A stretch of 64,000 bases of DNA, taken from positions 1 to 64,000 of the forward strand of contig JAUJNG010000005.1 of the NCBI GenBank assembly GCA_030448265.1. The letters run 5' to 3'. The notes under the pieces were generated by a model. The model was given only the letters and a program-made list of their open reading frames with translations. It had not been told where the DNA came from and ran no database searches. The position numbers and the translations under genes are program-made. Every line of letters starts with the position of its first letter. Position 1 is the stretch's first letter. Below, in pieces: positions 44,842 through 47,031 of the stretch. The DNA is from Abditibacterium sp. (lineage in GTDB: Bacteria; Armatimonadota; Abditibacteriia; Abditibacteriales; Abditibacteriaceae).

Positions 44842-45057
44842 ATGGAAGACATTCTGGAAACCATCGAGAATCTGCCGAGCAGTGTCTATTATGGCGGCGT
44901 GTTCGGCTCGATTTTGCTGTCGATGATCCTCTTTTTGACCGGCAAGCGTCAGGCCGCGATTTTCGTCGGATTGTGGCCGCCCACGATCCTCAATCTCGGA
45001 CTCTACAACAAGCTGCTGCGCCCTTCGCAGGAGCCTGGCACGCCCGATATTCCTTAA
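44842..45057 (+). CDS. Small hypothetical membrane protein
   Basis: 71 aa; SVYYGGVFGSILLSMILFLTGKRQAAIFVGLWPPTILNLGLYNKLL. Confidence 0.6.
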   Translation: MEDILETIENLPSSVYYGGVFGSILLSMILFLTGKRQAAIFVGLWPPTILNLGLYNKLLRPSQEPGTPDIP

Positions 45058-45073
45058 ATTGTTGTCAGTTTGA

Positions 45074-45161
45074 AATTAACCACAGAGACACAGAGGCACG
45101 GAGATTTTTGAGAGTTGGAGTTTGAAACTTTAAAAAAATCTCCGTGCCTCTGTGTCTCTGT
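45074..45161. repeat. Inverted repeat, family C, interrupted by the IS1-family element
   Basis: AATTAACCACAGAGACACAGAGGCACGGAGATTTTT / AAAAAATCTCCGTGCCTCTGTGTCTCTGT; right arm resumes after the IS as GGTTAATTTT at 45977. Confidence 0.95.
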
Positions 45162-45202
45162 GGTGTCTTTTCTGTATGAGTGTGAGATGTTAAGCTGGAG
45201 TC

Positions 45203-45514
45203 ATGGTCAGCCAAGTTTTCCAATGCCCTCACTGCGGTGAAAGTGAGCGCGTTCGTCGTCATGGTCGCACACGGCGCGGTAGCGAACGCTTGTATTGCAA
45301 TGTCTGCCGTCGCGCTTTTACGCCATCTCCCAAGTCGCGCTCCTTGAGCGAGGAGAAGAAAACTCACATTCTCAACGCCCTGGCCGAGAAGATGCCCCTG
45401 ATCGCGATTTGCCGCACCTTCAAGGTCAGTCCGAACACTGTCTACGCCCTGCTCAAAAAACGTAGAAGCCCTGCCTCCTGTGAACGAGACGCTCAAACCC
45501 TGCGCCTGGGATGA
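45203..45514 (+). CDS. insA: IS1-family InsA-like protein
   Basis: CPHCGESERVRRHGRTRRGSERLYCNVCRRAFTP zinc finger plus HTH. Confidence 0.88.
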   Translation: MVSQVFQCPHCGESERVRRHGRTRRGSERLYCNVCRRAFTPSPKSRSLSEEKKTHILNALAEKMPLIAICRTFKVSPNTVYALLKKRRSPASCERDAQTLRLG

Positions 45515-45947
45515 GTTGGTTGTGGACGAGATGTGGAGTTTCGTTTTCTCCAAAGCGCAGCAAGTGTGGATTTGGGTGGCCCTTTCACGGCGCCACTTAC
45601 AAATCGTGGCGTTTCATCTCGGAAAACGCGACTTAGAAAGTGCTCAGAAGCTGTGGGAGCAAGTTCCTTGGCCGTGGCGCGAGGGGCTGGTCTTCACCGA
45701 TGGATTGAAAACCTATCAGGCGCTCTTTGAAGAGCGTCCTCTCCAGCATTGCCGCTGCCCCAAAGCCGACAAGCAGCGCTTTGGAGAAACCTCGGTGGTC
45801 GAAGGAGCCAACAATGCCTTGCGCCAGGGCGTCTCGTATCTCGGACGCAAAACCGCCGCTTTTGCCCGCTCGACCTACTGGCTCCACATGAGACTCACCT
45901 GGTTCGTCCATCACTGGAATCGAAGGCAAGCTGATAAGTGGAACTAA
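45480..45947 (+). CDS. insB: IS1-family transposase InsB-like (DDE), joined to InsA by frameshifting
   Basis: WDELVVDEMWSFV, VFTDGLKTYQALF, VVEGANNALRQGVSYLGRKTAAFARS; poly-A run at 45455-45460. Confidence 0.9.
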   Translation: MNETLKPCAWDELVVDEMWSFVFSKAQQVWIWVALSRRHLQIVAFHLGKRDLESAQKLWEQVPWPWREGLVFTDGLKTYQALFEERPLQHCRCPKADKQRFGETSVVEGANNALRQGVSYLGRKTAAFARSTYWLHMRLTWFVHHWNRRQADKWN

Positions 45948-45978
45948 CACTCCGTTAGAATAACTACCGTCTCTGTGG

Positions 45979-47031
45979 TTAATTTTTTTTGTTATAGACC
46001 GGCGCCATCGCGTCGATTTCGTCCCACAAACGCACATAACTTTCATAGCGCGATTGCGCGATTTTCCCCTCTTCCAACGCCGCGCGCACCGCGCAGCCTG
46101 GTTCGCTGCGGTGAGTGCAATCGTTGAATTTGCACTGCCCTAAAAGCGCGCGAAATTCCGGAAAACAGTGTTCGACATTGATCTCCTGCTGCTCCAGCAG
46201 CGCGACGGTTTTTACCCCTGGCGTGTCGGCGATGTAGCCGCCGCCATCGAGCGGATGCAGCGTGACATCGGTGGTGGTGTGGCGACCTTTGCCGATATCC
46301 ATCACTTCGCCGACCCACAGTTCCAGTTTGGGCTGAATCATCATCACCAGCGATGATTTCCCCACGCCCGACGAGCCGATGAGCGCCGAAATGTGGCCTT
46401 TGAGCTGCTTTTTGAGTTCCTTGCGGCCCATGTCGATGCCTTCTTCGGCACTGGTCAAAACCACCGGATAACCCAGGCCAGAATACAGCTTTTCGAGCGG
46501 CTCGATTTCTTTTTTGATTTCGCGTTTCTTGAGCAAATCAATCTTGTTAAAAACGATGACGGCGCGCAGTTCGTTGGCTTCAGATAGCACCAGAAAACGG
46601 TCGAGGCGATGCGGATTCAAATCCGGCTCGCGCGAGGCCATCACGATGACGACCTGATCGAGATTGGCAACCGTGACCTGCGAAGTTTTGTTGTAGCGCG
46701 AGCGGCCCAACTGCGAAGTGCGGGGCAAAACTTCCTCTATGAAACCCTCGCGCGAGGTGATTCCCTCGCGGTTGCCACCCGAAGTTTCGAGGGGCCGCAC
46801 CCGCACGCGGTCGCCGACCGAAACCGGCTGCGAGAACTCGCGGCGTCCTTTTTTGAGCCGTCCGCCGAGGGCGCAGACAAGCGGCTGGCGCTTTTTGCCT
46901 TCTTCGGGCACATCGACTTCGTAAACGCCGCCCGCGCTTTTCATCACCGTGCCTTCGATAAGCGTCACGCATTGGGGCACAATGGTTTCGGGCGCGAGTT
47001 GTTTGGGATTGTTGGCGGGTTTTTGCGGCAT
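45979..47031 (-). CDS. rsgA: Ribosome small-subunit-dependent GTPase A
   Basis: VFNKIDLL, TSAEEG, IGSSGVGKSSLV, GRHTTTDVTLHPL, DTPGVK, CTHRSEPGCAVRAALEEGKI. Confidence 0.95.
   Translation of the reverse strand: MPQKPANNPKQLAPETIVPQCVTLIEGTVMKSAGGVYEVDVPEEGKKRQPLVCALGGRLKKGRREFSQPVSVGDRVRVRPLETSGGNREGITSREGFIEEVLPRTSQLGRSRYNKTSQVTVANLDQVVIVMASREPDLNPHRLDRFLVLSEANELRAVIVFNKIDLLKKREIKKEIEPLEKLYSGLGYPVVLTSAEEGIDMGRKELKKQLKGHISALIGSSGVGKSSLVMMIQPKLELWVGEVMDIGKGRHTTTDVTLHPLDGGGYIADTPGVKTVALLEQQEINVEHCFPEFRALLGQCKFNDCTHRSEPGCAVRAALEEGKIAQSRYESYVRLWDEIDAMAPVYNKKN

Follow-up and report, generated by a model that had tools for sequence, protein, structure and literature searches.

At one site in the 64,000-nucleotide stretch of Abditibacterium sp. 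DNA analyzed here (the window), an insertion sequence (IS) sits inside one arm of a long palindromic repeat. This arrangement raises the question of whether the element recognizes such repeats or reached this one by accident. We conclude that the locus very probably records a conventional IS1-family insertion, by chance, into a gap between convergent genes that is almost entirely intergenic palindrome.

Identity, ends and copies of the element

IS1-family elements are common among bacterial jumping genes. A first, sequence-only reading of the window had assigned the element to this family and noted its InsA/InsB open reading frames, and profile searches bear the assignment out. Specifically, the insB-like ORF matched Pfam DDE_Tnp_IS1 (PF03400) with 50.3 bits (cut-off 24.1), and a fused transposase, with the two ORFs linked in the reading frame that the intact copies use, scored 143.3 bits against the NCBIfam IS1 model NF033558 (cut-off 100). 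Judged from its predicted proteins, the element is a transposon of the IS1 family with an IS1-type DDE transposase. Feature coordinates are collected in the table.

Table. Features of the IS1-family insertion and of the palindrome that contains it
Feature	Position in window	Strand	Remark
Palindromic repeat, left arm, 37 nt	45073..45109	+	empty-site reconstruction
Palindrome right arm, part 5' of the IS	45134..45161	+	final 8 bases are the left duplication copy
Target-site duplication, left copy GTCTCTGT	45154..45161	+	
IS1-family insertion sequence, 807 bp	45162..45968	+	imperfect terminal inverted repeats, start GGT
insA-like ORF, zinc-ribbon and HTH	45203..45514	+	IS1/IS1595 zinc-binding domain match
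Frameshift tract AAAAAAC	45455..45461	+	one A fewer than AAAAAAAC of sister copies
insB-like ORF, DDE_Tnp_IS1 domain	45480..45947	+	Pfam match
Target-site duplication, right copy GTCTCTGT	45969..45976	+	
Palindrome right arm, remaining outer part GGTTAATTT	45977..45985	+	contains rsgA stop codon

The terminal inverted repeats are imperfect (GGTGTCTTTTCTGTATGAGTGTGAG versus GGTAGTTATTCTAACGGAGTGTTAG), with ends GGT...ACC. Three further near-identical copies are present in the genome (C25:235575, C43:36736 and C43:38557), and all four copies have the same two ends; no copy lacking the ends proposed at 45162 and 45968 was found. The three copies represent two other sites, as the two C43 copies have identical flanks because each is carried by one of the tandem repeats of an IS982-family element. 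That region (C43:36073-40788; L084 4074-8789) contains three tandem IS982-family copies, the first two of which carry the IS at the same site. Among 150 related genomes no other full-length copy was detected, only short weak matches. The genome also contains a sister IS1 element, ~70% identical and with GGTATCTTTTCC ends, in 15 full or nearly full copies, a count that leaves out two short matches at C7:25765-27423; duplications of 8-9 bp flank it at 12 of 14 sites.

The left junction reads ...TGTGTCTCTGT before the boundary and GGTGTCTTTTC after it, and the right junction ...ATAACTACC followed by GTCTCTGTGGTTAATT. At the window site alone the boundary is uncertain by two bases, GG being common to both sides. 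This ambiguity is settled by the other copies, whose sites are clear: the C43 duplication, GGCGTGGT, is unambiguously 8 bp and leaves IS ends of GGT...ACC, and the C25 duplication is CTCTACCG. The exact GTCTCTGT on both sides of the window copy, proposed earlier as a target-site duplication, is thus one of three 8-bp duplications at independent sites, in keeping with the terminal repeats and 8-9-bp duplications of the IS1 family.

In the sister copies of the IS, the insA-like ORF stops after 87-88 codons and the AAAAAAAC tract gives the -1 relation of InsA and InsB; the intact C25 copy, with A7C and InsB in -1 phase, has the overlapping-ORF frameshift arrangement of the family. All three other copies have A7C, versus A6C in the window copy, where the shorter tract breaks the -1 phase and a -1 shift meets TAG immediately. 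Unless the base is a sequencing error, the usual -1 frameshift would therefore yield no transposase from the window copy. The missing A may have cost this copy its transposase fusion and left it inactive. Of the 15 copies of the sister element, 4 also have an A6 tract, and one locus (L003) carries scattered single-base indels. This variation suggests either a mutable tract or assembly homopolymer errors, the L003 indels also pointing to the latter; the A6/A7 difference may reflect true slippage in the tract or homopolymer errors of long-read sequencing. In both IS1 elements (window 45455-45460; L001-L019), the tract where InsA and InsB overlap has seven A's in most copies and six in some.

The interrupted palindrome

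Deletion of 45162-45976 in silico, that is, of the IS with one copy of the duplication, rebuilds a palindrome whose 37-nt arms are 100% complementary and enclose a loop of 24 nt, as the sequence-only reading had anticipated. That reading also held that the stem is broken by the insertion. The IS does lie inside the right stem, but a 31-nt perfect hairpin remains because the IS itself starts with GGT; the predicted energy changes from -68.7 to -64.6 kcal/mol, with a stem of 31 bp after insertion. The T-run formerly located 3' of the hairpin on the + strand now lies 815 bp from it, and the insertion may have affected where transcription ends.

The neighboring convergent ORFs end at 45057 and 45979, which gives a pre-insertion gap of ~106 bp. 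Because this gap is almost all palindrome, an insertion within it had to land in the palindrome. The minus-strand gene, rsgA, retains its stop codon, which is supplied by the outer palindrome arm (45979-45981, within AATTAACC). The palindrome was unreported by a terminator scan, as the scan takes loops of 3-8 nt only; it had no match in Rfam, and a literature search for its sequence returned no paper containing it. A search for an orthologous empty site gave none, as no such palindrome lies next to rsgA in the same-genus and same-family genomes.

Elsewhere in this genome the arms of the palindrome family gave 114 matches with up to 2 mismatches, versus 10 for a control. Almost none of the family is present in the same-genus genome (1 exact arm match); it is common in the same-family genome (58), where CACAGAGA-type palindromes have a wider arm spacing, ~120 bp (genomes G000, G001 and G002). 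A second, related-looking family (CCGCATTGGCGCAAAGGCGCAAAG / CTTTGCGCCTCTGCGTCTTTGCGG) occurs at L040 2490-2605. The L040 locus was considered as another interrupted palindrome and rejected, since it holds an intact palindrome and a different palindrome 1 kb away. In the window, many unrelated near-perfect palindrome families, with arms of 18-64 nt, occupy 27 places and ~4.5% of the sequence; they merit separate study.

Chance or target recognition

The sequence-only reading had hinted at a role for the palindrome as a target and proposed asking whether other copies of the IS also sit in palindromes. Neither of the two other sites does, and the 14 scored sites of the sister element are likewise non-palindromic. 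Of 17 insertion sites scored by script, the window site alone is inside a palindrome, that is, 1/3 sites for this IS and 0/14 for its sister. An eighteenth site (L017), with one end missing and read by eye, is outside any palindrome. Palindromes with arms of 18 nt or more account for at least 1608 of the ~8221 non-coding bases of the window, or at least ~20%, a lower bound because the gene proxy overcalls coding DNA. With the genome's palindromic share estimated from the window, the probability that at least one of 18 insertions falls in a palindrome by chance is ~0.56, and for the three independent sites of this IS, a number small enough to leave room for a weak preference, it is 0.13. One hit among ~18 insertions is therefore expected, given how much non-coding DNA the palindromes cover.

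A preference of the IS for palindromic repeats, such as that of IS1397, ISPsy8 and ISPpu9 for REP sequences, would account for the perfect insertion into one arm at the window site, and REP-targeting elements do exist (PMC1525189). Such a preference is nonetheless very unlikely here: beyond the palindrome-free sites above, the REP-specific elements in that study are 100% associated with REP sequences, at one fixed position, whereas IS1 in Shigella was in or near REP sequences in 6/101 copies (PMC1525189), a rate similar to that seen here. In addition, 30 of 30 palindrome-arm loci inspected retain the partner arm, and only L032 and L033, the window's own, are interrupted. Still less probable, in our estimation, is a weaker form of this idea, in which IS1-family elements of this lineage slightly prefer the feet of long intergenic hairpins and palindromes serve as safe havens. 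Least credible of all is the reading of the 8-bp direct repeat as a native extra unit of the arm. In its favor, the arm consists of CACAGAGA/CACAGAGG units that recur every 8 bp, which makes a native repeat conceivable in principle, and some palindrome copies (L039) have one additional unit on one side; it is opposed by exact 8-bp duplications at IS sites that have no such periodicity and by arms that are complementary at 37/37 positions once one duplicate is deleted.

The favored explanation is thus chance insertion, in which an IS1-family element transposed into the ~106-bp gap between the two convergent genes. Its predicted InsAB' DDE transposase would have made staggered cuts 8 bp apart, repair of which would have duplicated GTCTCTGT, and a convergent-gene gap would be expected to tolerate the insertion. 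The palindrome was probably struck because palindromes fill much of the non-coding DNA and the gap tolerates insertion, rather than through recognition by the transposase.

Comparison with known elements

The IS shares with the IS1 family a length of ~0.8 kb, imperfect GGT...ACC inverted repeats, the 8-bp duplication, and a zinc-ribbon/HTH InsA with a DDE InsB; its A7 copies also share the -1 relation of InsA and InsB at an A-run followed by C. It differs in being distant in sequence, the InsB part being only ~35-39% identical at the amino-acid level to the best named relatives, and in the A6 tract of the window copy, as opposed to A7 in its sister copies. The case is of minor importance. It contributes one more divergent member of the IS1 family, whose ends are well defined, and a clean example of an apparent target preference that gains no support when examined against the other copies in the genome. 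Like the REP-targeting elements IS1397, ISPsy8, ISPpu9 and ISRm22, the IS lies within a palindromic repeat between genes, and taking it out restores the repeat. In those elements all or most copies occupy a single fixed position in the repeat, versus one site in three for this IS and none of the scored sites of its sister.
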